Shown one piece after another: positions 13,999 to 56,131 of a stretch of DNA of 64,000 nucleotides. The notes under the pieces are model-generated. The model was not told the DNA's origin and made no database searches. It saw only the letters and a program-made list of their open reading frames with translations. Every line of letters begins with the position of its first letter. Within the stretch, counting starts at the first letter, position 1. The DNA comes from Azospirillum thermophilum. GTDB lineage: Bacteria; Pseudomonadota; Alphaproteobacteria; Azospirillales; Azospirillaceae. Both the position numbers and the translations under genes were made by a program. Location: contig NZ_CP029354.1 in the NCBI RefSeq assembly GCF_003130795.1, positions 434,001 through 498,000 of the forward strand, written 5' to 3'.

Positions 13999-14901
13999 GC
14001 CGCGCGCCCTCCTGCCGCAGCAGGGCGGCGGTGACGAGGCGGGCGAAGCGCAGGGCGGTCGGCAGGCCGCCGAAGTGATTGACCGGTTCGATCAGGCTCA
14101 CCCGCCTGTCCCGCACCATCGGCAGCGCTTGCCACAGCGCGCTGTCGACCAGGGCATGGGCCGCGTCGGACGGAAGCGGAGGCACGACGATGACGGTGGC
14201 GTCCGGCAGCCGGGCCAGGGCCTCGATGCCCAGGGGGCCGCCGCGCTGTAACGCGATTCCACCGTCCAGGCGTTCCCGATGCCCAGCCGGCCCAGCACGT
14301 CGCCGAACATGCTGTCGCTGCCGAAGGCACGGACGTGACGGGCGTCGCCGAAGTTGATGACCAGCACCGGCCGCCGGACGATCCCCTGGAGGGAGCCGCG
14401 CAGGCGCGCGATCTCCGCGGCGGCTCCGTCGACCACCTCCTGTGCCTGCACGCCCCGCCCCAGCATCGCGCCGAGAGTGGTCACGGCGGCGGTGGCGGCC
14501 GGATAGGGCGGCAGGCCCGGGCTGTAGATGGACAGGGACAGGGTGTCCGCCACCCGCTCCAGGCTCGGCCGCTGGCCCTCGTAGTAGTTGGAGGTGAGGA
14601 TCAGGTCCGGCTCCGCCAGGATCAGCGCCTCGTAGTTCGGCGATCCGCGCAGCCCGAGGTCGATGACGGAGGCGGGAACGGCCGGCTCGACGGCGACCTT
14701 GCGGAACTGGAGCAGTTCGGTGGCGGCGACCGGCACCACCCCCAGCGCCAGCACCGTCTCCAGCACGGCCCAGTCGATGACGGCGATCCGGCGGTAGTCC
14801 GGCGTCGCCGCGGGGCCGGTGCGGGGCGGCAGGACCAGCCCCGCCGCCAGCGTCATGGCGTAGCCGAGCGCCCGGCGCCGCGACATCGCCCCCGCCGTCA
14901 T
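13991..14901 (-). pseudogene. fhuD: FhuD-like ferric-siderophore binding protein, one frameshift
   Basis: The N-terminal part reads from 14901 with a Tat-like signal (SRRRALGYAMTLAAG) and FhuD features: IAVIDWAVLETVLALGV, then DLILTSNYYEG and GRLGIGNAWTVES. After about 14250 the homology continues in another frame (GPLGIEALARLPDATVIVVP ... LWQALPMV) to a stop at 13991-13993. Adding one base at the GCC-GCC run near 14241-14243 restores a single frame of about 303 residues. The start overlaps the ATPase gene stop (ATGA). All other fhu genes are intact, so a sequencing error is more likely than true loss. Confidence 0.82.
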
Positions 14902-31938: not shown

Positions 31939-32350
31939 TCTGCGATCGCCGCTCAACGTATGACTGGGTGACGGGATTACTTTTAGCCCACGAACCGTTA
32001 AGATTTTCTTCCAGAGCAACAATAGATCATACCCGGATACGAGGGAAGTTCTCCTGCGCTCCATGATTCAATTGGTCACATCTGCAAGTTCGTTCGTTTC
32101 CTTATTATCGAAACGACCTTTCCCGGCTTCGCCCGCATCATCCGCACGGCAAATCGGTCGGTACGCCAGCAGCTTTCGCAGGGACCTGCCCGCTTCGTTT
32201 GCCGGACTTGACCTAGGTCAAGTTCTTCCCGCCCGAAAGAACCGATACTTAAGCATGAGCGGTTGGGCCGTTCGTGCCAGCTCCTGCTGGCCGACAGCCG
32301 CAACCGGCTCGATGCCACAGACCTTTCGCCGCCGAACGAGAGCGCTTCCC
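31939..32350. other. Divergent regulatory region between the hybrid kinase and the nap operon
   Basis: About 410 bases, clearly less GC-rich than its surroundings from 31960 to 32260. It carries the FNR/FixK-type palindrome at 32206-32223. An open frame starting TTG at 32263 runs into napE, but that start would sit almost at the expected transcription start, so I treat the region as leader. No other feature is visible. Confidence 0.55.
32206..32223 (+). promoter_or_regulatory. FNR/FixK-type binding site of the nap promoter
   Basis: ACTTGACCTAGGTCAAGT is a perfect 18-base palindrome containing TTGAC-N4-GTCAA, a close variant of the FNR/FixK consensus TTGAT-N4-ATCAA. If it works as a class II activator site, transcription would start near 32256. 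It lies upstream of napEDABC, which in many proteobacteria is induced at low oxygen by this family. Confidence 0.75.
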
Positions 32351-36684: not shown

Positions 36685-37380
36685 TCACACCGTCAGGTAC
36701 TTGCGCACCTCGCTCTCCTCCAGCCCGTCGCGCGGGCCGGCCAGCATCACCTCGCCGCGCTCCATCACCGCCCAGTCGTCGGCGAGGTCGCGGGCGAACT
36801 CGAAATACTGCTCGACCAGCAGGATCGCCATGTCGCCCCTGTCGCGCAGGTAGCGGATGGCGCGCCCGATGTCCTTGATGATCGAGGGCTGGATGCCCTC
36901 CGTCGGCTCGTCCAGCACCAGCAGGCGCGGCCGGGTGACCAGCGCGCGGCCGATGGCGAGCTGCTGCTGCTGCCCGCCCGACAGGTCGCCGCCGCGGCGC
37001 TCCAGCATGCTCTTCAGCACCGGGAACAGCTCGAACACCTCGTCGGGGATCGAGCGTTTGGCGCGCGGCAGCGGCGCATAGCCGGTCAGCAGATTCTCGC
37101 GCACCGTCAGCAGGGGGAAGATCTCGCGCCCCTGCGGCACATAGGCGATGCCGCGCCGCGCCCGGTCGGCGGGGGCGAGCCTCGTGATGTCCGCCCCGTC
37201 CCAGCCGATCGAGCCGCCCGACACCGGCTTCAGCCCGATGACGGCGCGCAGCAGGCTGGATTTGCCGACCCCGTTGCGGCCCAGCAGGCAGGTGACCTTG
37301 CCGACCTCCGCCCGCAGCGACACCCCGCGCAGGGCCTGGGCGGCGCCGTAATGCAGATCGACCGATTTGACGTCCAGCAT
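36685..37380 (-). CDS. urtE: Urea ABC transporter ATPase UrtE
   Basis: A 231-residue LivF-type ATPase. Walker A is GRNGVGKSS, the signature LSGGQQQQLAIGRAL, and Walker B LLVLDEPTEGIQPSIIKDIG; the phrase EPTEGIQPSI separates UrtE from amino acid LivF proteins. The start MLDVKSVDLHYGAAQALRGV is typical for the family. It is the last gene of the urt operon and its stop lies just past the nap terminator. Together with UrtD it powers high-affinity urea uptake. Confidence 0.93.
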   Translation of the reverse strand: MLDVKSVDLHYGAAQALRGVSLRAEVGKVTCLLGRNGVGKSSLLRAVIGLKPVSGGSIGWDGADITRLAPADRARRGIAYVPQGREIFPLLTVRENLLTGYAPLPRAKRSIPDEVFELFPVLKSMLERRGGDLSGGQQQQLAIGRALVTRPRLLVLDEPTEGIQPSIIKDIGRAIRYLRDRGDMAILLVEQYFEFARDLADDWAVMERGEVMLAGPRDGLEESEVRKYLTV

Positions 37381-37398: not shown

Positions 37399-38144
37399 CT
37401 ACCGCCCGAGATACACGTCGATGACCTGCTGGTTGCCGCTGACCGAATCCAGCGAGCCCTCGGCCAGCACCGAGCCTTCGTGCAGCACCGTCACCTTCAC
37501 CCCAGCGCGCGGACGAAGGCCATGTCGTGCTCGACGACGATGACCGAGTGGCGGCCGGCGATGTCGACCAGGAGTTCGGCCGTCTGTTCGGTCTCCGCGT
37601 CGGTCATGCCGGCCACCGGCTCGTCCACCAGCAGCAGCTTGGGGTCCTGGGCCAGCAGCATGCCGATCTCCAGCCACTGCTTCTGGCCGTGCGACAGGCT
37701 GCCGGCCTGGCGGTCGCGCAGGGCCGACAGGCGGGTGATGTCGAGGATCTCCTCGATCCGGGCGCGGTCGTCGCGGCCGACCGAGTAGGTCAGCGTGTCG
37801 ATCGGCCGGCGCGGCGCCTTCAGGGCCAGCTCCAGATTGTCCCAGACGCTGTGCGGCTCGAACACGGTCGGGCGCTGGAACTTGCGGCCGATGCCGAGCG
37901 AGGCGATGCGGGACTCGCGCAGCTTCGTCAGGTCGGTCCTGCCCTCGAACAGGATGGTCCCGGTGTCGGGCCGGGTCTTGCCGGTGATGACGTCCATCAT
38001 GGTCGTCTTGCCGGCGCCGTTCGGGCCGATGATCGCCCGCATCTCCCCCGGCGCGATCACCAGCGAGAGGCTGTTCAGCGCCCGGAAGCCGTCGAAGGTG
38101 ACGGAGACGCCGTCGAGATAGAGCAGGGTGTCTTCCGCGGACAT
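37399..38144 (-). pseudogene. urtD: Urea ABC transporter ATPase UrtD, one frameshift near the C-terminus
   Basis: From the ATG at 38144 the LivG-type ATPase reads normally: Walker A GPNGAGKTT, IGRKFQRPTVFE, signature LSHGQKQWLEIGML, Walker B LLLVDEPVAGM. It meets a TGA right after AFVRALG. The expected ending VKVTVLHEGSVLAEGSLDSV to IDVYLGR is intact in the next frame down to a stop at 37399. Adding one G to the run at 37500-37503 (CCCC on the + strand) joins both parts into about 248 residues. Only one base is missing and the operon is otherwise intact, so an assembly or sequencing error is likely. Confidence 0.88.
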
Positions 38145-38148
38145 GGTG

Positions 38149-39297
38149 TCAGGCTCCCTTCCGCTCGGCGGTTGCGTCGGGTGCGGCGGCGAGGCGCTCG
38201 CGCCTGGGCAGGCGGGCGGCGACCTGCCCGGCAAGGCCGAGCAGCCCCTTCGGCAGGAACAGGGTGACCAGCACGAACAGGCCGCCGAGCGCGAACAGCC
38301 ACAGCTCCGGCAGGGCGGCGGTGAAGTAGCTCTTGCCGAAATTCACCAGCACCGCGCCGATGACCGCGCCGGCCAGCGTGCCGCGCCCGCCGACCGCCAC
38401 CCAGATCACCGCCTCGATCGAGGCGGCCGGCGCGAACTCCGACGGGTTGATGATGCCGACCTGCGGGACGTAGAGCGCCCCGGCCACCCCCGCCATGCAG
38501 GCGGACAGCACCCAGGCGAACAGCTTGTAGCTTTCGGTGCTGTAGCCGAGGAAGCGCACGCGGCTCTCGGCGTCGCGCAGCGCGATCAGCACCTTGCCGA
38601 GCTTGGAGGCGACGACCGCCGAGGCGATCAGGTAGCCGAGCGCCAGGGCGAGGACCGTGGCGACGAACAGCGCGATGCGGGTCGCCGGGGCCTGGATGTC
38701 GGCACCCAGGATCTCCTTGAAGTCGGTCAGGCCGTTGTTGCCGCCGAAGCCCATGTCGTTGCGGAAGAAGGCCAGCATCAGCGCGAAGGTCAGCGCCTGG
38801 GTGATGATCGAGAGATAGACGCCCGTCACCCGGCTGCGGAAGGCGAACCAGCCGAAGGCGAAGGCCAGCAGGCCGGGCACCAGCACCACCATCAGGGCGG
38901 CGATCCAGAACTGGTCGAAACCCAGCCAGTACCAGGGCAGCTCCGTCCAGTTCAGGAAGACCATGAAGTCGGGCAGCACCGGATGGCCGTAGACGCCGCG
39001 CGGGCCGATCTGCCGCATCAGGTACATGCCCATGGCGTAGCCGCCGAGCGTGAAGAAGGCGGCATGCCCGAGCGAGAGGATGCCGCAATAGCCCCACACG
39101 AGGTCGAGCGACAGCGCCAGCAGGGCGAAGCACAGGTATTTGCCGAGCAGCGACACGGTGTGGATGGAGAGGTGCCAGGGCGACCCCTCCGGCACCCAGA
39201 GCGTCATCGCCGGCACCGCGACCGCGAGGAGGGCGAGCACCGCCAGCATCACGCCGGCGCGGCGGTCGAGGCCCATCAGGAGAAAGCGCGTCAGCAT
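38149..39297 (-). CDS. urtC: Urea ABC transporter permease UrtC
   Basis: A 382-residue LivM-type permease with about ten membrane helices. The blocks DLVWGYCGILSLGHAAFFTL, FRSRVTGVYLSIITQALTFA and GFGGNNGLTDFKEILG are typical for UrtC, the last being a good distinction from amino acid permeases. It starts four bases before the urtB stop region ends and five bases separate it from urtD, so all are on one transcript. With UrtB it forms the channel for urea. Confidence 0.95.
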   Translation of the reverse strand: MLTRFLLMGLDRRAGVMLAVLALLAVAVPAMTLWVPEGSPWHLSIHTVSLLGKYLCFALLALSLDLVWGYCGILSLGHAAFFTLGGYAMGMYLMRQIGPRGVYGHPVLPDFMVFLNWTELPWYWLGFDQFWIAALMVVLVPGLLAFAFGWFAFRSRVTGVYLSIITQALTFALMLAFFRNDMGFGGNNGLTDFKEILGADIQAPATRIALFVATVLALALGYLIASAVVASKLGKVLIALRDAESRVRFLGYSTESYKLFAWVLSACMAGVAGALYVPQVGIINPSEFAPAASIEAVIWVAVGGRGTLAGAVIGAVLVNFGKSYFTAALPELWLFALGGLFVLVTLFLPKGLLGLAGQVAARLPRRERLAAAPDATAERKGA

Positions 39298-39301
39298 GGG
39301 A

Positions 39302-40930
39302 TCAGGCCTCCACCGCCCGGCCCTTCAGCGCGAAGAGACCGCGCGGACGCCGCTGGATGAACAGGATGATGAAGATCAGCACCAGGATCTTGCCGAGCAC
39401 GGCGCCGGCATAGGGCTCCAGGAACTTGTTGACCGAGCCCAGCGCCAGCGCGCCGACCAGCGTCCCCCACAGGTTGCCGACGCCGCCGAACACCACGACC
39501 ATGAAGCTGTCGATGATGTAGCTCTGGCCCAGGTTGGGGCTGACGTTGTCGATCTGGCTGAGCGCCACCCCGGCCAGCCCGGCGATGCCGGACCCCAGCC
39601 CGAAGGTCAGCGCGTCCACCCGCGCGGTGCGGATGCCCATGGCGTTGGCCATGGCGCGGTTCTGCGTCACCGCCCGGATCGACAGGCCGAACCAGGTCTT
39701 CTTCAGCGCCACCAGCAGGGCGGCGAAGACGGCGAAGGCGAAGACGACGATCCACAGCCGGCCGTAGGTGATGGTCAGCCCGCCGAGCTCGAAGGCGCCG
39801 GACATCCAGGAGGGCGCGCCGACCTCGCGGTTGGTCGGCCCGAAGAGCGAGCGGACCGCCTGCTGCAGCGCCAGCGACAGGCCCCAGGTGGCGAGCAGCG
39901 TTTCCAGCGGCCGGCCGTAGAGCCAGCGGATCACGCTGCGCTCGATGGCGATGCCGACGCCGCCGGCGACCAGGAAGGCGACCGGCAGCGCCACCAGGAT
40001 CGACCAGTCGAACAGGCCGGGGGCATAGGCGCGGAAGGCCTCCTGCACCAGGAAGGTGGCATAGGCGCCGATCATCACCATCTCGCCATGCGCCATGTTG
40101 ATGACGCCCATCACGCCGAAGGTGACGGCGAGCCCGATGGCGGCGAGCAGCAGGACCGAGCCCAGCGACAGCCCGTACCACAGGTTCTGCGCCGCGGCCC
40201 ACATGGCGAGCGTCTGCTCCACCGTCGCGGCGGCGGCGCGGGCGGCGGTCCTGGCCGCGTCCGACGCGTCGGAACCGGCGACCATGGTCAGCAGCGCCAG
40301 CGCGTCGCGGTCGCCGCGGTCGGCCAGCGTGGCGACGGCGGCCTGGACATCGGCATCCGGCGCGCCGCCGGCGGTCAGCAGGATGGCGGCGCGGGCCTGC
40401 TCCATGGCGCGGCGGACGCCGGCATCGGTTTCCTTGGCGATGGCGGCGGCGAGCGTCTCCAGCGCGGCGGCGTCGCGGCTCTTGAACACCGCGTCGGCGG
40501 CGGAGCGGCGCGTGGCGGCGTCGGGGCTCATCAGCGTCAGCGCGCCGAGCGTCGCGCTGATGGCGCGGCGCAGGCTGTTGTTGATCCTGATCTTCTCGAC
40601 GGCCGCGGCGGGCGCCTCGCCGAGGTCGGCCCTGGTCAGCGGGTCGGAGAGGGCGTAGCCGCCGCCGGCCTTGCGGGCGATGACGACCGCGCCGTCGGCC
40701 TTGCGGACATGGAGGTCGCCCGCCTGCAGCGCCTCGATCACCGGAACGGCCGCCGGGTCGCCGGCTTCGGCGAGCCGGCCGAGCGCCTTCTCCGTCCCCG
40801 CATAGCCGCCGCTGCCGAGCGCCTGGACAAAGGGCTTCAGGTCGGCCGGCGTCACGTCTGCGGCGAGCGCCGCGTGGGAGCAGAGGACCGCCACGCACAG
40901 GGCGAGGCACCAGCGAACTGCGCGTCGCAT
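39302..40930 (-). CDS. urtB: Urea ABC transporter permease UrtB
   Basis: A 542-residue protein. After a signal-like segment (WCLALCVAVLCSHAALAADV) comes the Ala-rich periplasmic domain of about 230 residues that is special to UrtB, then a LivH-type permease of eight helices (GVMGVINMAHGEMVMIGAYA, then SYIIDSFMVVVFGGVGNLWG). The start at 40930 (MRRAVRW) removes a poorly conserved upstream extension. It partners UrtC. The role of the N-terminal domain is not known. Confidence 0.94.
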   Translation of the reverse strand: MRRAVRWCLALCVAVLCSHAALAADVTPADLKPFVQALGSGGYAGTEKALGRLAEAGDPAAVPVIEALQAGDLHVRKADGAVVIARKAGGGYALSDPLTRADLGEAPAAAVEKIRINNSLRRAISATLGALTLMSPDAATRRSAADAVFKSRDAAALETLAAAIAKETDAGVRRAMEQARAAILLTAGGAPDADVQAAVATLADRGDRDALALLTMVAGSDASDAARTAARAAAATVEQTLAMWAAAQNLWYGLSLGSVLLLAAIGLAVTFGVMGVINMAHGEMVMIGAYATFLVQEAFRAYAPGLFDWSILVALPVAFLVAGGVGIAIERSVIRWLYGRPLETLLATWGLSLALQQAVRSLFGPTNREVGAPSWMSGAFELGGLTITYGRLWIVVFAFAVFAALLVALKKTWFGLSIRAVTQNRAMANAMGIRTARVDALTFGLGSGIAGLAGVALSQIDNVSPNLGQSYIIDSFMVVVFGGVGNLWGTLVGALALGSVNKFLEPYAGAVLGKILVLIFIILFIQRRPRGLFALKGRAVEA

Positions 40931-41030
40931 CTCATGGGTCCTTGGTTCGGGGGAGATACAGGCCCTGCCCCCCGCCGCCCGCGTCCGAACCGTCGGTCGC
41001 ACGCGGGCGGCGGGGGAGACGGTCACGTCG

Positions 41031-42332
41031 TCACGAGCCCTTGCCGCCGCACTTGCCGGTCTTCACGTTGAAGTTCCCGCAGGACAGCGGCTTGCGCCAG
41101 TCGGCGATCAGGTCCTTGCTGTCCGGCAGGAAGTCCGACCACTCGTCGCCGGGCACCAGGCCGGGGGTCTTGGAGACGATCTCGAACTGGCCGTTCTCCT
41201 GCACCTCGCCGATCAGGACCGGCTTGGTGATGTGGTGGTTCGGCAGCATGGCCGAATAGCCGCCGGACAGGTTCGGCACCGCGACGCCGACCATGGCGTC
41301 GATCACCGCGTCGGAGCTGGTGGTGCCCGCCGCCGCGACCGCCTTGACCCACATGTTGAAGCCGATGTAGTGGGCCTCCATCGGGTCGTTGGTCACGCGC
41401 TTGTCGTTCTTGGTGAAGGTCTTCCAGGCCCTGATGAACTCGGCGTTCACCGGGGTCTCGACCGACTGGAAGTAGTTCCAGGCGGCGAGATGGCCGAGCA
41501 GCGGCTTGGTGTCGATGCCCGCCAGCTCCTCCTCGCCGACCGAGAAGGCGACGACCGGGATGTCCTCGGCCTTGATGCCCTGGTTGCCCAGCTCCTTGTA
41601 GAAGGGCACGTTGGCGTCGCCGTTGATGGTGGACACCACCGCCGTCTTCTTGCCGGCCGAGCCGAACTTCTTGATGTCGGCGACGATCGACTGCCAGTCG
41701 GAATGGCCGAACGGCGTGTAGTTGATCTTGATGTCCTCGTCCTTGACGCCCTTGGACTTCAGGTAGGCTTCGAGGATCTTGTTGGTGGTGCGCGGATAGA
41801 CGTAGTCGGTGCCGGCCAGCACCCAGCGCTGCACCTTCTCCTTCTGCATCAGGTAGTCGACGGCCGGGATCGCCTGCTGGTTCGGGGCGGCGCCGGTGTA
41901 GAAGACGTTGCGGGACGACTCCTCGCCCTCATACTGCACGGGGTAGAAGAGGATGCTGTTCAGCTCCTCGAACACCGGCAGGACCGACTTGCGGCTGACC
42001 GAGGTCCAGCAGCCGAACACCGCGGCGACCTTGTCCTTGGTGATCAGCTCGCGCGCCTTCTCGGCGAACAGCGGCCAGTTGGAGGCGGGGTCGACGACCA
42101 CGGGCTCCAGCTTCTTGCCGAGAACGCCGCCCTTCTTGTTCTGCTCCTCGATCAGCATCAGCATGACGTCCTTCAGCGTCGTCTCGCTGATCGCCATGGT
42201 GCCGGAGAGCGAATGCAGGATGCCCACCTTGATGGTGTCCTGCGCAAGCGCCGGGCCGGCGCCCGCCGCCGCATAGAGAGCCAGGCCGGCAAGCGCGCCG
42301 AGCGAATAGTTGGTCGCCTTCAGAGTCCGCAT
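41031..42332 (-). CDS. urtA: Urea ABC transporter substrate-binding protein UrtA
   Basis: A 433-residue periplasmic protein with a signal peptide ending near PALAQD. Family signatures are IKVGILHSLSGTMAISE, FGCWTSVSRKSVLPVFE, LFYPVQYEGEESSRNVFY and PMEAHYIGFNMW, all typical of UrtA rather than amide-binding FmdD. The end contains two cysteines in CGNFNVKTGKCGG. It is the first gene of urtABCDE, facing away from the permease-kinase gene. The start at 42332 is set by the signal peptide; 25 further residues upstream look non-coding. Confidence 0.95.
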   Translation of the reverse strand: MRTLKATNYSLGALAGLALYAAAGAGPALAQDTIKVGILHSLSGTMAISETTLKDVMLMLIEEQNKKGGVLGKKLEPVVVDPASNWPLFAEKARELITKDKVAAVFGCWTSVSRKSVLPVFEELNSILFYPVQYEGEESSRNVFYTGAAPNQQAIPAVDYLMQKEKVQRWVLAGTDYVYPRTTNKILEAYLKSKGVKDEDIKINYTPFGHSDWQSIVADIKKFGSAGKKTAVVSTINGDANVPFYKELGNQGIKAEDIPVVAFSVGEEELAGIDTKPLLGHLAAWNYFQSVETPVNAEFIRAWKTFTKNDKRVTNDPMEAHYIGFNMWVKAVAAAGTTSSDAVIDAMVGVAVPNLSGGYSAMLPNHHITKPVLIGEVQENGQFEIVSKTPGLVPGDEWSDFLPDSKDLIADWRKPLSCGNFNVKTGKCGGKGS

Positions 42333-42352
42333 TCGTAAGCCCCCTTGTTCGT

Positions 42353-42387
42353 CAGACGTGGTCGTCCGCGTTGTTCTCTGACGTCTG
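42353..42387. promoter_or_regulatory. Inverted repeat in the urtA / permease-kinase promoter region
   Basis: CAGACGT (42353-42359) and ACGTCTG (42381-42387) are perfect 7-base arms separated by 21 bases, 20 to 55 bases upstream of the urtA ATG. It lies in the shared control region of urtABCDE and the two-component genes, so it is a candidate binding site for the neighbouring LuxR-type regulator. I found no convincing sigma-54 promoter here. Confidence 0.35.
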
Positions 42388-42606
42388 GCCGGCGGTCTTG
42401 ACGCCACCGGTGTGGTCGGCCGGAATGCTAGCGCGGGGGTCGGGGCGCGTATCTACGTCAAACGCCCCATATGGCGGTGCAGCATCGGCATGCGGAATGG
42501 CCGTCCGCGACCGGAGCCCCGCCTGCGGGCGGCGTGCCCCGGCCGCATGGATCCGTTGCCGATGGGGAGCATCCCGCCCTTGCCAACCGCGCGCAAAGCC
42601 CTGACG

Positions 42607-45600
42607 ATGCCGCACGGCGCATCGCCACAGGACCGGACAGGGGGCGGCCGGACGGCCGAACAGATGGGCGCTCGGCAGAGGATCGTTCGGGAACGGCGGC
42701 AGTACAACCAGCTCGCCGCCGACCAGACGCTGGAAGACTATGCGCTGCGCTACACGGCGGAGCGGGCGCGGCGCTGGTCCGCCTGGCGGGTGGTCCATAC
42801 GGCGCTCGGCGCCATCTCCTTCCTCGCCTGCGAGGCCATCGGCGCGGCGGTGACGCTGGCCTACGGGTTCGAGAACGCCATCGCCGCCATCCTGGCGGTG
42901 GGGGTGCTGAACATCCTGGTCGGGCTGCCGATCACCTATCACGCGGCGAAGGCCGGCGTGGACATCGACCTGCTGGCCCGCGGGGCCGGCTTCGGCTATC
43001 TGGGCTCCACCGTCACCTCGCTGGTCTACGCCTCCTTCACCTTCATCCTGTTCTCGATCGAGGCCAGCATCATGTCGGCCGGGCTGACGCTGGTGCTGGG
43101 CATCCCGGATTCGCTCGCCCACGTCATCAGCGCGCTCGGCGTCATCCCGATCGCGGTCTACGGCATCCGCGTCATCAGCCGCATGCAGGTGGCGACCCAG
43201 CCGGTCTGGATCCTGCTGCAATGCGTGCCGCTCGCCTATTTCGTCCTGCTCGACCGCTCGGTCTTCGCGGAGTGGACGGGCTTTCCGGGGCTGCAGGGAA
43301 CCGGCGGCTTCGCCCTGCTGCCCTTCGGCATGGCAGCCTCCATGCTGCTGTCGCTGCTGCCGCAGATCGGCGAGCAGGTGGACTATCTGCGCTTCCTGCC
43401 TTCGCCGGCGCGGATGGGGCGGGGCCGCTGGTGGGCGGCGATGCTGGCGGGCGGGCCCGGCTGGTCGGTGATCGGCAGCCTGAAGCTGGCGCTGGGCTCG
43501 CTGCTGGCCTTCCTGGCGCTGAAGCACGGGCTGCCGCCGGCCGACGCCATGCAGCCGACGGTGATGTACCACATGGCCTTCTCCGACCTGTTCGGCTGGC
43601 CGGCGCTGGCGCTGGCGCTGACCGGGATCTTCGTCGTGGTCTGCCAGATGAAGATCAACGTGACCAACGCCTATGCCGGTTCCATCGCCTGGTCCAACTT
43701 CTTCTCGCGCCTGACGCGCAGCCATCCGGGCCGCGTGGTCTGGCTGGTCTTCAACGGGTTGCTCGCCCTGCTGCTGATGGAGATCGGCATCCTCGGCGTG
43801 ATCGAGAGCATCCTGGCGCTCTACGCCAACGTGGCGGTGGCTGGCTGGGGGCGGTGGCGGCCGACCTCACCATCAACAAGCCGCTGGGCTTCAGCCCGCG
43901 GGGATCGAGTTCAAGCGCGCCCACCTCTACGACATCAACCCGGTCGGCGTCGGGGCGATGGGGCTGTCGGTGCTGTCCTCCACCGCCGCCTTCTTCGGGC
44001 TGGCGGGGCCGGTGCCGCAGGCGCTGGCGCCCTTCATCGGGCTGGTGGTGGCCATCGCCGCCGCCCCGGTCATCGCCTGGGCGACGCGGGGGCGCTATTA
44101 CCTCGCCCGCCCGGCCGCCGGCCTGCCGGAGGGGGCGGCGGAGATCCGCTGCTCGATCTGCGAGAACAGCTTCGAGCGGGCGGACATGGCCTTCTGCCCG
44201 GCCTACGACGCGCCGATCTGCTCGCTCTGCTGCACGCTGGAGGCGCGCTGCCACGACCTGTGCAAGACGAGGAGCCGCTTCGCCGACCAGATCGCCGGGG
44301 CGCTGCGCGCCGTGCTGCCGCCGCGGCTGGCGGCGGGGGTGCACACGCGCATCGGCCATTTCATCGGGGTGATGGCGCTGTTCACCCTGCTGCTGGGCGG
44401 GGTGCTGATCGTCATCGACTTCCACTTCGCCAGCGCAGCACCGGAGGAGCTGACGGCGATCCGCGCCGCGCTGACCGCGGTGTTCTTCTGCCTGCTGATC
44501 CTGTCGGGGGTCGCCGCCTGGCTGCTGGTGCTGGCGCATGAGAGCCGCCACAAGGCGGAGCAGGAGACCGCCCGCCAGACCGCCATGCTGATGGACGAGA
44601 TCGCCGCGCACGAGCGCACCGACGCCGCCCTGCAGAAGGCCAAGGAGGCGGCGGAGGCGGCCAACGCCGCGAAGAGCCGCTACATCATCGGCGTCAGCCA
44701 CGAGATCCGCGCGCCGCTGAACGCCATCTCCGGCTATGCCCAGCTTCTGGAGCGCGGCGCCACCGAACGGCCGCAGGACGCGGTGCGGGTGATCCGGCGC
44801 AGCGCCGAGCATCTGTCGAACCTGATCGACGGGCTGCTCGACATCTCCAAGATCGAATCCGGCCTGCGCAAGCTCAGCCGCGACAAGGTGAAGCTGCCGG
44901 ACTTCCTCGACCAGCTCGCCGACATGTTCCGCATCCAGGCGGAGGCCAAGGGGCTGGAGTTCCGCTATGAACGCGCCCCGCGCCTGCCGGGCTGGGTCCA
45001 CACCGACAGCCGCATCCTGCGCCAGATCCTGATCAACCTGCTGTCCAACGCGGTGAAGTACACCGAGACGGGATTCGTCGCGCTGACCGTGCGCTACCGC
45101 AGCCAGATCGCCGAGATCGAGGTCGCCGACAGCGGCATCGGCATCCGGCCGGAGGATCTGGAGCGGGTGTTCGAGCCGTTCGAGCGCGGGCGCGGCGCCG
45201 CCGTGCGGGCGGTGGCGGGCACCGGGCTCGGCCTGACCATCACGCGGCTGCTGACCCAGATCATGGGCGGCGACATCGCGGTGCGCAGCGCCGCCGGCTC
45301 CGGCAGCGCCTTCACCGTGCGGCTGCTGCTGTCCGAGGCCGCCCCCGGCGAGGAGGCGGAGCGGCGGCCGGTCGCCGGCTATGCCGGGCCGCGGCTGAAG
45401 GTCCTGCTGGTCGACGACGATCCCGAGCAGCTCGGCCTGATGCAGGAGATCCTGCGGCCGCTGGGCTTCCTGCTGTTCACCGCCTCCGACGCCGCGGGCA
45501 GCCTCGATCTGGCGGCCCAGTGCCGGCCGGACCTGGCATTGCTCGACATCTCGCTGCCCGGCGAGAGCGGCTGGGACATCGCCGAGGCGCTGCGCGGCCG

Positions 45601-46093
45601 GTTCGGACCGGCGATCCGCATCGTCATGGTCTCGGCCAACGCCTACGAGGCGGCGGGGCCCGGCGACGGGCGCAGGCCGCACGACGCCTTCGTGGCGAAG
45701 CCGATCGACATCGCCCAGCTCCTCGACCGCATCCAGGCGCTGACCGGGCTGGAGTGGCTGCAGGCCGGCGGGCAGGGAGGCGGCGAGCCGGCAGGCGGCG
45801 GACCGGGAGCGGGCGAGGCCCCGGCGCCCCCGGCAGCCACGCCGGCGCCCCCACCGCCACCCGGACCGGCAGCCGCGCCGGCGCCGGCCGCCCTGCGTCA
45901 CCTCGACGACCTGCACCGGCTGGGCAGGATCGGCTATGTTCGGGGGATCGAGGCCAAGCTGCGGGAGATGGAGGCGGAAGACCCCGCGCTGGCCCCCTTC
46001 GTCGAGCGGCTGCGCAGTCTGGTGCGTGCATTCGACCTGAAAGGGTATATGAAGGTGGTGGATTTGGCGCGGAGCGATGGGGTCGGGGGATGA
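42607..46093 (+). pseudogene. NCS1 permease / Cys-rich / hybrid histidine kinase fusion, two frameshifts
   Basis: One long gene of about 1160 codons. Residues up to about 44130 form an NCS1-type (cytosine/purine/allantoin) permease: QYNQLAADQTLEDYALRYTA, FENAIAAILAVGVLNILVGL, MKINVTNAYAGSIAWSNFFS. Then come an eight-cysteine segment (44150-44263), two membrane helices, a HisKA domain (GVSHEIRAPLNAISGY), an HATPase domain (NLLSNAVKYTE, GTGLGLTI), a receiver (LLVDDDPEQLG, LALLDISLPG) and a Pro/Ala linker with a helical tail. Single bases are missing near 43841 and 43900-43903; restoring both gives NVAVAWLGAVAADLTINKPL and GFSPRGIEFKRAHLYDINPV. The start is uncertain (42547, 42607 or 42664). It overlaps the next regulator by ATGA. 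Confidence 0.82.
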
Positions 46094-47013
46094 AGCGTCG
46101 GGACATGATCCTGGTGGTCGACGACACGCCCGAGACCCTGGGATTCCTGACCGACGCGATCGAGGACGCCGGCCTGACCGCGCTGGTCGCCACCGACGGG
46201 GACGGCGCGCTGGAACTCGTGGCCCAGATCACCCCCGACCTGATCCTGATGGACGCCATGATGCCGGGGCTCGACGGGTTCGAGACCTGCCGCCGGCTGA
46301 AGCAGAGGGCCGAGGTCTCCCACGTTCCCGTCATCTTCATGACCGGCCTGACCGACACCGAGCATGTGGTGCGCGGGCTGGAGGCCGGCGGCGTCGACTA
46401 CGTCACCAAGCCCATCGTGGTCGACGAGCTGATCGCCCGCATCCGCGTCCACCTCGCCAACGCCCGGGTGTCCTATGCCGCGCGCATGGCGCTGGACGCC
46501 ACCGGCCGCTTCCTGCTGGCCGCCGACGCCGAGGGCCGCATCCTGTGGTGCACGCCGCAGGCCGAGCGGCTGATGCAGGGCCTGCTGCCGGGACCGGACG
46601 GCGCGCCGGCGGCGCAGGCGGACGCGCTGGCCGCCGGGCTGGCCCGGCTGCGGCAGGCGCCGTCCGGCGACGGCCTGGCGCTGACGCTGCCCGACGGCGA
46701 GGGCGGCACGCGGCGGCTGGAGTTCTCCTACCTCAGCCCGGCCAATCCGGGGGAGTACCTGTTCCGCCTCAGCGAGCCGGCGGCCGGCCGGCAGGAGGCG
46801 ATCCTGCGCGACGCGCTGGGGCTGACGGCGCGCGAGGCCGACGTGCTGCTGTGGCTCGCCAACGGCAAGTCCAACCGCGACATCGGCGAGATCCTCGGCA
46901 TCAGCCCGCGCACGGTGAACAAGCATCTGGAGCAGGTCTTCGCCAAGCTCGGCGTCGAGAACCGCGCCTCCGCCGCCGCACTGGCCATCCGGATGCTGGC
47001 GGCCAAGAGCTGA
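46090..47013 (+). CDS. LuxR/NarL-type response regulator, partner of the permease-kinase
   Basis: A 307-residue protein overlapping the kinase gene by four bases (ATGA). Residues 5-125 are a receiver with D11-D12, phospho-acceptor D55 (LILMDAMMPG) and K107 (YVTKPI). A middle part around 130-220 resembles a PAS-like module (ATGRFLLAADAEGRILWCTP). The end is a LuxR helix-turn-helix (LTAREADVLLWLANGKSNRD, then ISPRTVNKHLEQVFAKLGVE). The coupling makes it the cognate output of the kinase; likely targets are urtABCDE and genes for nitrogen use. The extra middle domain is unusual for NarL-type regulators. Confidence 0.9.
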   Translation: MKRRDMILVVDDTPETLGFLTDAIEDAGLTALVATDGDGALELVAQITPDLILMDAMMPGLDGFETCRRLKQRAEVSHVPVIFMTGLTDTEHVVRGLEAGGVDYVTKPIVVDELIARIRVHLANARVSYAARMALDATGRFLLAADAEGRILWCTPQAERLMQGLLPGPDGAPAAQADALAAGLARLRQAPSGDGLALTLPDGEGGTRRLEFSYLSPANPGEYLFRLSEPAAGRQEAILRDALGLTAREADVLLWLANGKSNRDIGEILGISPRTVNKHLEQVFAKLGVENRASAAALAIRMLAAKS

Positions 47014-47031: not shown

Positions 47032-47496
47032 TCACCCCCGGCGGCGGGCGGCCAGCACCGCCTCGATCCGGCTGCGCAGCAGGTCGGGCTTGATCGGCTT
47101 GACCAGGAAGGCGGTGGCGCCGGCGCCATGCGCCCGGGTGACGATGTCCGCCTCGGTATGGGCGGTCAGCATGATGACGGGGGTCTTCGGGTCGATGGCG
47201 TCGGGCGGCACCGGCTGCGCACCCTCCTCCGGCGGCGGGGGCTGGCCGGCGCGCAGCCGGCGCAGGAAGGTGATGCCATCCATCGGCTTCATCCCGATGT
47301 CGCACAGGATGACGTCCACCGGGGCGATGCCCAGGATGCGGAAGGCCGCCGGACCGCTCGCCGCCTCGCGGACCGAGCCGACCCCGATCTTGCGCAGGAC
47401 CGACAGGATCAGATTGCGGGTGAAGTCGTGATCCTCGACCACGAGGACGGAGGCGGCGGCCAGATCGATCGCCATCGTACCAATGCTCCGGGACAT
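47032..47496 (-). CDS. Single-domain CheY-like response regulator
   Basis: A 154-residue receiver without output domain: VLVVEDHDFTRNLILSVLRK at the start, phospho-acceptor in VILCDIGMKPMDG, conserved Thr in VIMLTAHTE and Lys in FLVKPIKPD. An insertion of about 20 Pro/Glu-rich residues (PPPPEEGAQPVPPDAIDPKT) sits between beta-4 and the preceding helix. It converges with the LuxR-type regulator. It may take phosphate from the permease-kinase or another hybrid kinase. The start could be the second ATG at 47475. Confidence 0.85.
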   Translation of the reverse strand: MSRSIGTMAIDLAAASVLVVEDHDFTRNLILSVLRKIGVGSVREAASGPAAFRILGIAPVDVILCDIGMKPMDGITFLRRLRAGQPPPPEEGAQPVPPDAIDPKTPVIMLTAHTEADIVTRAHGAGATAFLVKPIKPDLLRSRIEAVLAARRRG

Positions 47497-51609: not shown

Positions 51610-52449
51610 ATGACCGCGAGGAAGCCGGCCGGTGCGGACGTGACCGGGGAGATCGCCGACGAGGTCTCCGGCGAACAGCCGAACGACCCCAACTTCATGA
51701 CGTCGCTGGCGCGGGGGCTGGCGGTGATCCGCGCCTTCACGGAGCGCGAGCCCAACCTGACCATCGCCGACATCGCCAGGATCACCGGCCTGCCGCGGGC
51801 TGCCGCCCGGCGCTGCCTGCTGACGCTGATGCAGCTCGGCTATGCCGGGACGGACGGGCGGACCTTCTTCCTGCGGCCGAAGATCCTGGCGCTGGGCTAT
51901 TCCTTCCTGTCCTCCGCCCCGCTTGCCAGCATCCTCGACCCGCTGATCGAGCGGGTGAGCGGGGCCGTGCAGGAATCCTGCTCCGCCGCCGTGCTGGACG
52001 AGGACGAGGTGGTCTACATCGCCCGCGCCGCGACCAAGCGGATCATGTCGGTCGGGCTGAATGTCGGCAGCCGCCTGCCGGCCTACTGCACCTCGATGGG
52101 CCGCGTCCTGCTCGCCGCCCTGCCGGAGGGGGAGCTGGAGGCCTATCTGCGGCGGGCCGCGCTGAAGCCCTTCACCGAACGCACGATCACCGCGCCCGAC
52201 GCGCTGCGCCGCGAGCTGGAGCGGGTGCGCGAGCGCGGCTTCGCCCTGGTCGACCAGGAGCTGGAGCTCGGCCTGCGTTCGATCGCCGTGCCGGTGCGCA
52301 CCGCGGCAGGCGCGGTGGTCGCCGCGATGAACGTCAGCGCCCAGGCCGCGCGCGTCACCTGCCCGGAGATGGAGGTGCAGTTCCTCCCCCACCTGACCCG
52401 TGCCGCGGAGGAGGCCCGCGTGCTGCTGGTGCGCACGCGGGGGGTGTGA
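51610..52449 (+). CDS. IclR-family regulator, PcaR/PobR type
   Basis: A 279-residue regulator with a ribosome site GGGGGGAGGAA. The helix-turn-helix lies at residues 30-85 (SLARGLAVIRAFTEREPNLT, IADIARITGLPRAAARRC). The ligand domain includes LPAYCTSMGRVLLAALP and RGFALVDQELELGLRSIAVP, both typical for IclR proteins of protocatechuate and related aromatic routes. A short palindrome GCGATAATCGC (51562-51572) upstream may be its operator. No aromatic catabolic genes are next to it, so its targets are probably elsewhere. Confidence 0.9.
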   Translation: MTARKPAGADVTGEIADEVSGEQPNDPNFMTSLARGLAVIRAFTEREPNLTIADIARITGLPRAAARRCLLTLMQLGYAGTDGRTFFLRPKILALGYSFLSSAPLASILDPLIERVSGAVQESCSAAVLDEDEVVYIARAATKRIMSVGLNVGSRLPAYCTSMGRVLLAALPEGELEAYLRRAALKPFTERTITAPDALRRELERVRERGFALVDQELELGLRSIAVPVRTAAGAVVAAMNVSAQAARVTCPEMEVQFLPHLTRAAEEARVLLVRTRGV

Positions 52450-52450
52450 C

Positions 52451-53065
52451 CTACTCCAGCGGGCAGGAGGCGAATTCCGGCAGCGCCTCCGCCCGTGCGG
52501 AGAAGCGCGTCAGCGCCGGGTGGCCGCCCTCCTCCACGATGTCGGGCAGGGCGAAGCGGGAGAAGCGCCAGGCGACCGCCACGGTGACGTCCGCCTGCAG
52601 CGGCCGGTCGCCGATCAGCCAGCCCTTGGCCGGCGCCACCTCCTTCTCCAGCACCTGCCAGGCGGCGAGGAGCTGGCCGCGCACCCGGTCGACCCAGGGC
52701 TCGTGCTGCTTCTCGCCGGGGCGCAGGTTGCGCTCGTAGACGATCTGCACCGCCTTCTCGCAGGCGGCGAGCGCCAGGCCGGTCAGGCGCTGGCAGCGCA
52801 GGAAGTCCGGCAGCGCCACCGGGTTCAGCCGCCGCCCGGTCGGCGCCAGCCGGTCGAGATATTCGAGGATCAGGGTCGAATCGAGCAGGACCGTCCCGTC
52901 GTCCGCCACCAGGGTCGGCGCCTTGACCACCGGGTTGATCGCCGCGAAGGCCTCGAAATTGCGGAAGACGGAGAGCGGCGACTGCTCGAAGGGCAGCCCC
53001 ATCAGCTTCAGCGAAACCGCGACGCGCCGCACATAGGGCGAGTCCATCATGCCGATCAGACGCAT
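52451..53065 (-). CDS. Glutathione S-transferase family protein
   Basis: A 204-residue protein. The thioredoxin-like N-domain reads RLIGMMDSPYVRRVAVSLKL with the glutathione cis-proline in VKAPTLV and a DSTLILEYLD contact region; the rest is the all-helical C-domain. The ATG at 53065 gives normal length. It converges with the IclR gene with only one base between the stops. The substrate is unknown. Stress or aromatic-compound metabolism are usual roles for such enzymes. Confidence 0.9.
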   Translation of the reverse strand: MRLIGMMDSPYVRRVAVSLKLMGLPFEQSPLSVFRNFEAFAAINPVVKAPTLVADDGTVLLDSTLILEYLDRLAPTGRRLNPVALPDFLRCQRLTGLALAACEKAVQIVYERNLRPGEKQHEPWVDRVRGQLLAAWQVLEKEVAPAKGWLIGDRPLQADVTVAVAWRFSRFALPDIVEEGGHPALTRFSARAEALPEFASCPLE

Positions 53066-53183
53066 CGGAATCCTTCCTTGCAATGGCGGCCGGACCATCG
53101 TCGGGCCATGGACTGAACGCGCCACAGCATGATCCGGCTTCGGCCAGGGTGAAAGGGCGCGGATCCCGCCGGCCGGATGCCGG

Positions 53184-54107
53184 CTACAGCATCGCGTCGG
53201 GCGAGATGGCGTCGAGCGAGGCGCGGATGCGCGGCACCAGATAGTCGGCGAAGGCCCGCACCTTGGCCGGCACCAGGGCGCGGTGGGGATAGAGGACGGC
53301 CAGCGTCACCGGCTCCGGCCGGAAGTCGGGCAGCACCAGTTCCAGCGCGCCGCGGGCCAGCGGCTCCGCCACCTCCCACAGCGGCTTCAGCGCGATGCCC
53401 TGCCCGGCCAGCACCCAGCCGGTCAGCACGTCGCCGTCGTCGGCGTCGTAGCGGCCCGCCACCGGCAGCTTCACCGCCTCGCCGGCCCGGTCGATCAGCG
53501 TCCACTGGTGCTGCTGCGTGCCGGGAAAGCGCAGCAGCAGGCAGTTGTGCGCGGCGAGGTCGGCCGGCTCGCGCGGGCGGCCGCGCGCCTCCAGATAGGC
53601 GGGGGAGGCCACGAGAACCCGGCGCAGGTCGGCGATCTTGCGCACGACGAAGCTGGAGTCCTTCAGGTCCGCCATGCGCAGCGCCACGTCCACCCCCTCC
53701 CGCAGCAGGTCGAGCAGATGGTCGGACAGGCGCAGCCGCACCTCCACCAGCGGATAGGTGGCGCAGAACTCCGGCACCAGCGGGGCGAGCAGGCTGCGGC
53801 CGAAGCCCAGCGGGGCGGTGACGCGGAGGCTGCCCGAAGGCACGCCCGATTCGGCGGCGATGCTGGACCGGGCGCGCTCCACCGCCTCCAGCACCTCCAG
53901 GCAGCCCTGGTAGAAGGTGAGGCCGGTCTCGGTCGGCTGGAGCTGGCGGGTCGTCCGGTTCAGCAGCCGCACGCCGAGATGGGTCTCGAGCTGCTGGATG
54001 CGGTGGCTGACCATCGCCGGCGACATGCGCAGGTTCCGCCCGGCCGCCGACAGGCTGCCGAGATCGACCACCCGCACGAAGATGCGCATGTTCTCCAGCA
54101 GGGCCAT
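53184..54107 (-). CDS. LysR-family transcriptional regulator
   Basis: A 307-residue regulator with an N-terminal helix-turn-helix (VDLGSLSAAGRNLRMSPAMV then LNRTTRQLQPTETG) and a periplasmic-binding-like effector domain (APLGFGRSLLAPLVPEF, VDVALRMADL). It belongs to the CrgA-like subgroup. It starts nine bases after the uraH stop, so it forms an operon with uraH and most likely regulates the ureide genes, including the divergent puuE-uraD unit. The inducer could be a ureide, but that is inference. Confidence 0.9.
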   Translation of the reverse strand: MALLENMRIFVRVVDLGSLSAAGRNLRMSPAMVSHRIQQLETHLGVRLLNRTTRQLQPTETGLTFYQGCLEVLEAVERARSSIAAESGVPSGSLRVTAPLGFGRSLLAPLVPEFCATYPLVEVRLRLSDHLLDLLREGVDVALRMADLKDSSFVVRKIADLRRVLVASPAYLEARGRPREPADLAAHNCLLLRFPGTQQHQWTLIDRAGEAVKLPVAGRYDADDGDVLTGWVLAGQGIALKPLWEVAEPLARGALELVLPDFRPEPVTLAVLYPHRALVPAKVRAFADYLVPRIRASLDAISPDAML

Positions 54108-54116
54108 GACGGCGGC

Positions 54117-54464
54117 TCAGCTTCCCCGGTAGGTCGAGAAGGCCCAGGGGGAGACCAGCAGGGGCACGTGGTAGTGCTGGGCGGGGTCGGCGATGCCGAA
54201 GCGGATCGGCACCTCCTCCAGGAAGGCGATGCCGTCGCCGGTGACGCCGCGGGCGCGGAAGTAGTCGCCGACGGCGAACAGCAGCTCATAGCGCCCGGCC
54301 GCGAAGGCCTCGCCCTCCAGGGCCGGCGCGTCGAGCCGCCCGTCCGCGTTGGTGACGAAGCGGCCGAGCACGGCGCCGCCGTCGAGCGAGGTCAGGGTGA
54401 TGCGCAGGCCGGCGGCGGGACGGCCGGCGGCGATGTCGAGAACGTGGGTCGTCAGGCGGCCCAT
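54117..54464 (-). CDS. uraH: 5-Hydroxyisourate hydrolase (transthyretin-like)
   Basis: A 115-residue enzyme, the typical size. Catalytic residues are in RLTTHVLD (His) and the C-terminal signature HYHVPLLVSPWAFSTYRGS, where His and the YRGS end define HIU hydrolases against transthyretins. It splits 5-hydroxyisourate, the product of urate oxidation, to OHCU. The product goes to UraD, encoded divergently. The ATG at 54464 is chosen because the upstream frame has no homology. The urate oxidase gene is not in the window. Confidence 0.96.
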   Translation of the reverse strand: MGRLTTHVLDIAAGRPAAGLRITLTSLDGGAVLGRFVTNADGRLDAPALEGEAFAAGRYELLFAVGDYFRARGVTGDGIAFLEEVPIRFGIADPAQHYHVPLLVSPWAFSTYRGS

Positions 54465-54679
54465 GATGCATGCCCCATGGCGGAATTCCCCTTCGGGCCG
54501 GATTTCCTCTTGCGGCCAAAGGCTTGGCCTCGGGAAACCGGGAGCGTACCCCGTCCGCGCCAGGATGGCGACCCCTGAAAAACCGGAAACTGTCTGAACC
54601 GCCCGGCCCGTTGATGCCAAGGCACGCTTTGGCTAGCGTTGCGCAAGGCAGTCCGGCCCCGGCCCTGGGAGATTCCTCG

Positions 54680-55594
54680 ATGACCGCATCCTACCCGCGC
54701 GACATGATCGGCTATGGCGCCACCCCGCCGCAGGCCAACTGGCCGGGGGGCGCGCGGGTGGCGGTGCAGTTCGTCATCAACTACGAGGAGGGCGGCGAGA
54801 ACTGCGTCCTGCACGGCGACGCCGCCTCGGAAGCCTTCCTGTCGGAGATCGTCGGCGCCCAGCCGATCCCCGGCGCCCGCCACATGAACATGGAGTCGAT
54901 CTACGAGTACGGCTCGCGCGTCGGCTTCTGGCGGCTGCACCGGATGTTCACCGAGCGGCAGATGCCGGTGACCGTCTACGGCGTCGCCATGGCGCTGGAG
55001 CGCAACCCGGCGGCGGTCGAGGCGATGCTGGCCGCCGGCTGGGAGATCGCCACCCACGGCTGGCGCTGGATCGACTACCAGCACCTGCCGGCGGAGGTGG
55101 AGCGCGAGCACATGATGCGCGCCATCGAGGTCCACACCGCCGTCACCGGCAGCCGGCCGCTCGGCTGGTATCTCGGCCGCTGCAGCCCCAACACCTGGCG
55201 GCTGGTCGCCGAGGAGGGCGGCTTCGTCTACAACGCCGACTCCTACGCCGACGAGCTGCCCTACTGGGACCTCAGCCACGGCCGCCCGCAGCTCATCGTG
55301 CCCTACACGCTGGACGCCAACGACATGCGCTTCGCCACGTCGCAGGGCTTCAACTCCGGCGACCAGTTCTTCGCCTACCTGAAGGACAGCTTCGACCTGC
55401 TCTATGCGGAGGGGGCGACGCAGCCCCGGATGCTGTCGGTCGGGCTGCATTGCCGGCTGGTCGGGCGTCCGGGACGCGCCGCGGCGCTGGCCCGCTTCCT
55501 CGACTATGTGCGCGGCCACGACAAGGTGTGGGTGGCCACCCGCCTCGACATCGCCCGCCACTGGATCGCCAGCCACCCGGCCCCGGCCGCCTGA
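54680..55594 (+). CDS. puuE: Allantoinase, PuuE type (polysaccharide-deacetylase fold)
   Basis: A 304-residue protein of the NodB/polysaccharide deacetylase superfamily. It opens YPRDMIGYGATPPQANWPGG and has VQFVINYEEGGENCVLHGD, THGWRWIDYQHLP and GLHCRLVGRPGRAAALARFL, the signature of PuuE allantoinases rather than chitin deacetylases. It opens the hydantoin ring of allantoin to allantoate. It is divergent from uraH and followed by uraD after 12 bases. A longer upstream frame would cover the uraH promoter and is not used. Confidence 0.95.
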   Translation: MTASYPRDMIGYGATPPQANWPGGARVAVQFVINYEEGGENCVLHGDAASEAFLSEIVGAQPIPGARHMNMESIYEYGSRVGFWRLHRMFTERQMPVTVYGVAMALERNPAAVEAMLAAGWEIATHGWRWIDYQHLPAEVEREHMMRAIEVHTAVTGSRPLGWYLGRCSPNTWRLVAEEGGFVYNADSYADELPYWDLSHGRPQLIVPYTLDANDMRFATSQGFNSGDQFFAYLKDSFDLLYAEGATQPRMLSVGLHCRLVGRPGRAAALARFLDYVRGHDKVWVATRLDIARHWIASHPAPAA

Positions 55595-55606
55595 GGAGCC
55601 CCGCCC

Positions 55607-56131
55607 ATGCCCGACCGCCCCGCCCACGGCCTCGACGCCGTCAACGCGATGGACCGCGCCGCCTTCGTCGCCGCCTTCGGCGCGGTCTACGAGGACAGCC
55701 CCTGGGTGGCGGAGGCGGCCTGGGAGGCCCGACCCTTCGCCGACGCCGCGGCCCTGCGGGCGGCGCTGGCCGGGGCGGTGCGGACGGCGGGACGGGAGCG
55801 GCAGCGCGCCCTGATCCTCGCCCATCCCGACCTGGCCGACCGCAAGGCGCGGGCGGCCAACCTGACCGCCTTCTCGCAGACCGAGCAGGCCCGCGCCGGG
55901 CTGGACGAGCTGACCGGGGCGGAGGCGGAGGAGCAGCGCGCCCTGAACCGCGCCTATCGGGCGCGCTTCGGCTTCCCCTTCATCATGGCGGTGCGCCACA
56001 GCACCAAGCAGCAGATCCTGCAGGCGATGCGCGAGCGCGTCGCCAACGAGCCGGAGGCGGAGTTCGCCCGCGCCCTGCAGGAGATCGACCGCATCGCCGG
56101 CTACCGGCTGGAGGAGCTGGTCGCGGGGTGA
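55607..56131 (+). CDS. uraD: OHCU decarboxylase
   Basis: A 174-residue helical enzyme. Conserved blocks are EDSPWVAEAAW near the start, ILAHPDLADRKA (the active-site HPDLA) and RFGFPFIMAVRHSTKQQIL, with the ending EIDRIAGYRLEELV. It decarboxylates OHCU to S-allantoin, which PuuE then hydrolyses. Gene order puuE-uraD with divergent uraH keeps the three steps together. It is the last gene of the unit and meets the unknown gene at 56141 head to tail with nine bases between. Confidence 0.95.
   Translation: MPDRPAHGLDAVNAMDRAAFVAAFGAVYEDSPWVAEAAWEARPFADAAALRAALAGAVRTAGRERQRALILAHPDLADRKARAANLTAFSQTEQARAGLDELTGAEAEEQRALNRAYRARFGFPFIMAVRHSTKQQILQAMRERVANEPEAEFARALQEIDRIAGYRLEELVAG

Follow-up and report, generated by a model that had tools for sequence, protein, structure and literature searches.

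A family of carrier-fused hybrid histidine kinases with an eight-cysteine module, linked to urea and amide genes in Pseudomonadota

Among the sources of nitrogen present in soil and water, urea and amides are common. In Azospirillum thermophilum, the gene of a hybrid histidine kinase whose product begins with a carrier domain lies next to the genes of the urea ABC transporter UrtABCDE, and this arrangement raises the question of what such a kinase senses and which genes it controls, in this strain and in the family to which it belongs. The locus was analyzed in a stretch of 64,000 nucleotides (contig NZ_CP029354.1, positions 434,001 to 498,000), hereafter called the window.

Some kinases fused to carriers have been described. 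In the accessible part of the literature, CbrA from Pseudomonas is presented as a histidine transceptor with the architecture SLC5-STAC-PAS-kinase, in which the carrier is thought to act as the sensor, and it is called a rare transceptor (PMC13022988). CrbS/CrbR and RpuS/RpuR are formed by SLC5/STAC kinases and LuxR regulators, and are related to acetate and pyruvate (PMC5715377, PMC9100948); CrbR, the LuxR-type regulator of one of these carrier-fused kinases, requires an inverted repeat (PMC5715377). The carrier-fused kinases in these papers are SLC5-based; the family studied here would add a second carrier fold.

The kinase-regulator locus and its split frame

The urt genes and the kinase-regulator pair are arranged in the window as follows; where a counterpart is mentioned, it is that of Azospirillum ramasamyi.

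36685..37380, minus strand: urtE (89% to urtE of A. ramasamyi over the full length; Pfam ABC_tran)
37402..38144, minus strand: urtD by its counterpart, split in two frames near 37500 (counterpart residues 1-215 map to 38144-37500, and residues 215-248 to 37503-37402 in the other frame)
38149..39297, minus strand: urtC (TIGR03408, 446.7 bits; counterpart present)
39302..41026, minus strand: urtB (TIGR03409, 425.7 bits; open reading frame as listed, the start of the counterpart corresponding to 40930)
41031..42332, minus strand: urtA, urea ABC transporter binding protein (TIGR03407, 564.7 bits, cut-off 492.75; 92% to its counterpart; start set at an internal ATG)
42333..42663, no strand: intergenic region between urtA and the kinase gene, with no clear family dyad
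42664..43848, plus strand: first open piece of the kinase gene, NCS1-like carrier domain (frame 1, start ATG 42664)
43839..43904, plus strand: break, with two frame changes of one base each against the seven aligned relatives (7/7), bridged in frame 3
43895..46093, plus strand: second open piece of the kinase gene (frame 2, first internal ATG 43958)
44150..44263, plus strand: eight-cysteine segment, CxxC..C..CxxCC..C..C, read from the sequence and invariant in 36/36 relatives
46090..47013, plus strand: LuxR/NarL-type response regulator, with a receiver, a middle module (PAS-like by eye) and a GerE HTH

Most of the initial annotation agrees with this arrangement. The kinase gene diverges from the urea transporter, given that urtA adjoins it on the opposite strand, and the eight cysteines are placed exactly where they had been reported. 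In the second open piece, the last part of the carrier is followed by the eight-cysteine segment, by two helices (predicted), by the domains HisKA, HATPase_c and receiver, and by a helical tail; HisKA (62.9 bits), HATPase_c (90.3 bits) and receiver (56.5 bits) score above their Pfam cut-offs, and the protein is a hybrid histidine kinase, as had been claimed. The regulator, also foreseen, has an intact frame, its ATG (46090) overlaps the stop codon of the kinase gene, and its receiver (98.2 bits) and GerE HTH (67.8 bits) place it in the LuxR/NarL type; the PAS-like middle module was not recognized by Pfam. Regulators of one single cluster are found on the kinase strand in 75 of 80 loci. The ureide genes mentioned at about 7 kb are also present, i.e. 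the allantoinase gene puuE (54470-55591) and the adjoining counterparts of uraH and uraD. These genes are part of a purine/ureide group (51610-56122) that includes as well an IclR-type and a LysR-type regulator. Another hybrid histidine kinase, which has PAS domains, is encoded at 29650-32064 (minus strand) and is the next-best match in the window to the carrier-fused kinase, and a stand-alone receiver protein is encoded at 47032-47496 (minus strand), convergent with the LuxR-type regulator.

The single continuous fusion protein that had been proposed did not stand, since the gene as sequenced is split over frames 1, 3 and 2. In comparison with the seven Azospirillum relatives that were aligned (7/7), one base is absent at 43839-43841 and another at 43899-43904. 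In a set of 41 genomes (that of the window, 24 of its genus and 16 of its class) the kinase was found in 16, all within the genus Azospirillum. A programmed frameshift was set aside as the cause of the split given that the 21 Azospirillum matches outside the window (21/21) are open across the split region. When the window genes were compared with those of A. ramasamyi, 3 of 19 were split between frames (the kinase gene twice, urtD, and the gene of a siderophore binding protein); the 19 genes are those with an annotated A. ramasamyi counterpart in three stretches of the window together with the kinase-regulator pair, hits below 55% identity were dropped, and gcl and one PAS protein were left out. 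The siderophore ABC binding protein gene (14006-14901, minus strand) is split near 14235, far from the kinase. Since one of the three split genes belongs to an unrelated siderophore operon, an indel-prone assembly is favoured over decay of the kinase gene, and sequencing error is the probable cause of the split. It is rather unlikely that this copy is a true pseudogene, with urt outside its control in the source strain. In favour of that reading, the two single-base differences are not compensated, a search of the genome for another copy of the carrier part gave none at E ≤ 1e-50, urtD is also split, the intergenic region has no clear dyad and the subtype of the window kinase is not linked to urt in the genus, as described below; against it, the distribution of the split genes matches an indel-prone assembly, and the remaining frame of the kinase and the regulator are open.

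The carrier domain and the eight-cysteine module

The first domain had been assigned to the NCS1 carriers. On the window carrier, Pfam gave no family at E ≤ 0.1 and PF02133 was not matched; in 12 further genomes, no listed PF02133 match (E ≤ 1e-5) falls at a kinase place. A sequence search of the PDB with a 36-row profile gave nothing at E ≤ 1, therefore the fold was compared, using a relative of the window protein. NCS1 carriers are at the top of the structural ranking and SLC5 carriers are lower; the nearest matches are a cytosine carrier and a hydantoin carrier, and the match to Mhp1 and CodB spans 396-435 residues. Profile-profile alignment to NCS1 gave an hhalign probability of 98.8. The assignment is thus sustained by the fold (CodB/Mhp1) of the relative and by profile alignment, but not by Pfam, and for this reason we call the domain NCS1-like and do not file it as PF02133.

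The family carrier resembles Mhp1 and CodB in its fold and in the Asn pair of TM8, which is kept as N330 and N333 in 36/36 relatives (numbering of the relative L007). It differs from them in that it falls below PF02133, in its fusion to a kinase, and in the TM8 positions of Mhp1 Ser312 and Thr313, which we take to be Na+ ligands; according to the sequence alignment on which this correspondence rests, these positions are occupied by Lys328 and Ile329, both of them invariant. Since the lysine replaces a sodium ligand, we propose that the carrier could be Na+-independent.

The eight cysteines are all invariant (36/36 sequences). A profile of the module detected 75 places in 69 of 396 genomes, the same genomes that carry the kinase, and nothing further at E ≤ 1e-4, with at most 14 candidates scored per genome and the coincidence of the 75 places with 75 kinases judged by eye. 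When modelled by itself, the module is predicted to form two hairpins and one short helix that bears CxxCC (pLDDT 75). Its best structural matches, none of them significant, are prominently RING, FYVE and LIM domains and the ribosomal protein eS26; the searches gave weak zinc-finger-like matches alone, with no significant match to a zinc-binding treble-clef fold. The predicted hairpin-helix fold and the eight invariant cysteines fit zinc, which the module probably binds, and the site might be binuclear. The metal or redox input that the initial annotation assigned to the cysteines is a putative role of the segment.

CbrA and similar carrier-fused kinases had been named for comparison, and rightly so: in both cases a LeuT-fold carrier precedes a histidine kinase, with a linker domain between the two. 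CbrA uses an SLC5 carrier and a STAC linker, whereas in the family the carrier is NCS1-like, the linking part is formed by the eight-cysteine module and two helices, and the protein contains a receiver as well. As described in the papers cited above, CrbS/CrbR and RpuS/RpuR also combine a carrier-fused kinase, a LuxR-type regulator and a repeat upstream of targets that include a symporter, and CrbS is a hybrid kinase like those of the family; in contrast, the carrier family, the linker, the ligand class and the DNA site are different. Pfam showed no STAC linker in the window kinase. Given that carrier, linker and gene context appear to differ from those of CbrA, CrbS and RpuS, we consider the family a variant of the carrier-fused kinases and not a member of the SLC5/STAC group.

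Distribution and gene linkage of the family

The region from the cysteines to the helices was matched by 7,619 of 8,000 scored candidates (E ≤ 1e-3), and most of the best 120 listed of these 7,619 are encoded as one protein, some 1,115-1,170 residues long. When the phylum was sampled evenly, the kinase was present in 69 of 396 genomes and 44 of 231 genera, with 75 genes when the two pieces of the window are taken as one; that is, in about one of every six sampled Pseudomonadota genomes. Among the urtA matches listed above the family cut-off (those below were dropped), 72 of the 75 kinases (69 genomes) are at 15 kb or less from urtA, fmdA or ureC, and 49 of 75 have a divergent urtA within 2 kb. 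On the same matches, the 75 kinases are accompanied by urtA and fmdA (40), urtA and ureC (16), urtA (6), ureC (5), fmdA (3), all three genes (2) or none (3). By our own arithmetic, with about four marker genes per genome of about 5 Mb and 15 kb on each side, chance linkage would be about 2% per kinase. The three unlinked kinases are at a contig end (G147), on a contig of 4.8 kb (G154), and in an Azospirillum in which urtA is 60 kb away (G385). The formamidase gene fmdA was detected in 46 of 396 genomes, and 45 of these 46 carry the kinase, as compared with 69/396 overall; the only fmdA genome without the kinase is G149. The linked operons were confirmed by NCBIfam, and also by the annotation of the records for A. 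oryzae and for Methylosinus trichosporium OB3b, the latter of the type with urt and urease. Linkage of the family to urt genes, accompanied by those of urease or of formamidase, is near-obligate, and the initial annotation, which would have been contradicted by homologues unlinked to urea genes, is upheld on this point.

The carrier subtypes follow the linked enzyme, urease or formamidase. A tree was obtained with 46 of 93 carriers retained after thinning, the window copy being left out, in which 9 of the 46 rows had no label and a urtA below 50% identity was counted as amide type; it has 8 label changes by linked enzyme, against a mean of 19.7 in shuffled labels, and a value as low was observed in 0 of 200 shuffles. 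One side of the tree is urea/urease-linked and includes the window-subtype relatives from Azospirillum, and the other is mainly amide-linked with an inner urease-linked group. In one genome (G130, locus L108) the carrier and the cysteine module are found on a different kinase, without receiver and of a type judged by eye, adjoining fmdA, which implies that the sensor half has been shuffled between kinase types.

The gene context of these operons (urtABCDE with urease; urt-like genes with fmdA) is shared by a urt-like operon of Bradyrhizobium located beside a formamidase gene, for which amide transport was proposed; the main text of that SIMBAL paper makes no mention of a histidine kinase (PMC3098086).

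Because the kinase is nearly always beside urea/formamide genes, it probably senses these nitrogen sources. As a role for the family, the control of urea/amide genes appears well supported by linkage, although linkage cannot separate urea, amides or nitrogen status as the signal. The linked chemistry is that of urea, which the initial annotation named together with ureides, and also that of short amides, through the formamidase.

The situation in Azospirillum is different for the two subtypes. The amide-subtype kinases are beside urtA in 10 of 10 cases, whereas in none of the 11 relatives with the window's subtype is the kinase within 2 kb of urtA, and hence the adjacency of the window pair to urt is exceptional in its genus; outside Azospirillum, the subtype of the window copy does accompany urt and urease. 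In A. ramasamyi and A. lipoferum (L101, L102), the window-subtype pair is intact; a DUF1636 gene lies on one side of it and genes of the xanthine dehydrogenase family on the downstream side, and no urt gene is present within 12 kb. Given the lack of linkage of the subtype in the genus, the setting of the pair in these two species and the lack of a clear dyad in the window, urt control by this pair in the source strain is weakly supported; the control of urea uptake claimed in the initial annotation is sustained for the family by its linkage, and much less so for the window pair.

Classical NCS1 carriers handle nucleobases, hydantoins or ureides. It could be argued that the carrier senses one of these compounds, and that urea/amide genes are induced as a downstream breakdown step. 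The nearest fold matches (a cytosine and a hydantoin carrier) and the ureide genes puuE, uraH and uraD in the window agree with this idea, and the xanthine-dehydrogenase-family genes that directly follow the pair in the two Azospirillum records would suit a purine link, although this family name spans many enzymes; nevertheless, the presence of the kinase in nearly all fmdA genomes and its proximity to urea/amide genes, counted on the listed urtA matches, make it improbable.

Proposed signalling and the candidate control site

We consider it likely that the family consists of a carrier-fused hybrid kinase and a LuxR/NarL regulator that sense urea or short amides and activate the genes for their uptake and hydrolysis. 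According to this model, urea or a short amide (formamide, acetamide) would bind in or pass through the carrier; the resulting change would be relayed to the kinase by the cysteine module, probably with bound zinc, and the two helices; phosphate would then pass by the receiver to the regulator, which would bind a dyad and switch on the uptake and hydrolysis genes.

A candidate for this site is the 18-bp dyad ATACG-N8-CGTAT, which is conserved in the control region of the urtA and fmdA subtype. It was found in 18 of 33 intergenic regions of our choice (30 from the 80 loci, the window and two plasmid records), while in each of 20 shuffles the best count was 2-3. With a matrix trained on these 18 sites, 46 of the 73 upstream regions from the phylum sample scored at least 12, as did 2 of 365 shuffles, which preserve single-base content only, and 2 of 247 other stretches; the test regions share genera with the training regions. 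The highest control scores were 15.3 (shuffle) and 20.1 (other stretch). The test regions derive from 74 that were fetched, of which L182, with 21 bases, was left out; L123 is 396 bases long, and the genome of the window is not among them. By class, scores of at least 12 correspond to 39 of 42 urtA and fmdA regions and to 7 of 31 elsewhere. In the window, the best score of the intergenic region was 4.1 at 42450, against 6.5 for its best shuffle, and the strict dyad occurs at two places in the genome, neither of them near urt.

It is quite improbable that the main input of the kinase is metal, redox or general nitrogen status, perceived by the cysteine module, with the carrier serving only as an anchor: the invariance of the eight cysteines and the weak likeness to RING/FYVE-type zinc folds would suit it, but the carrier is highly conserved too (61% mean column identity across carrier, module and helices) and its subtypes track the linkage to urease or formamidase.

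Starting from the reading of the family as a urea/amide sensor, a more specific proposal, offered tentatively as somewhat short of an even chance, is that of an undescribed class of transceptor kinases, in which an NCS1-like carrier independent of Na+ would receive urea and short amides, a novel zinc module with eight cysteines would couple the movement of the carrier to the kinase, and the subtypes would be tuned to urea (urease loci) or to amides (formamidase loci). Among the matches listed for titles and abstract openings of the openly licensed literature, there was no NCS1-kinase or urea/formamide sensor kinase. If correct, the proposal would bring to the carrier-fused kinases a novel module for coupling, and a specific class of ligands as well.

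The amide-type loci of Azospirillum show an additional feature. In one of them (L201:11759-14281), the gene just before fmdA encodes a protein of 840 residues in which an MCP signalling domain is combined with a UrtA-like binding domain at the C-terminus (Peripla_BP_5, 424.6 bits), and this combination of domains inside the operon suggests a probable urea/amide chemoreceptor. DNA close to the L201 chemoreceptor region is found in A. brasilense, whose record NZ_CP032346 matches the kinase region and, some 6 kb from there, the gene of the amide-type chemoreceptor. A second UrtA hit with the same spacing as in L201, in a long frame (823-1108 aa), is present in 8 of the 10 amide-type Azospirillum loci.
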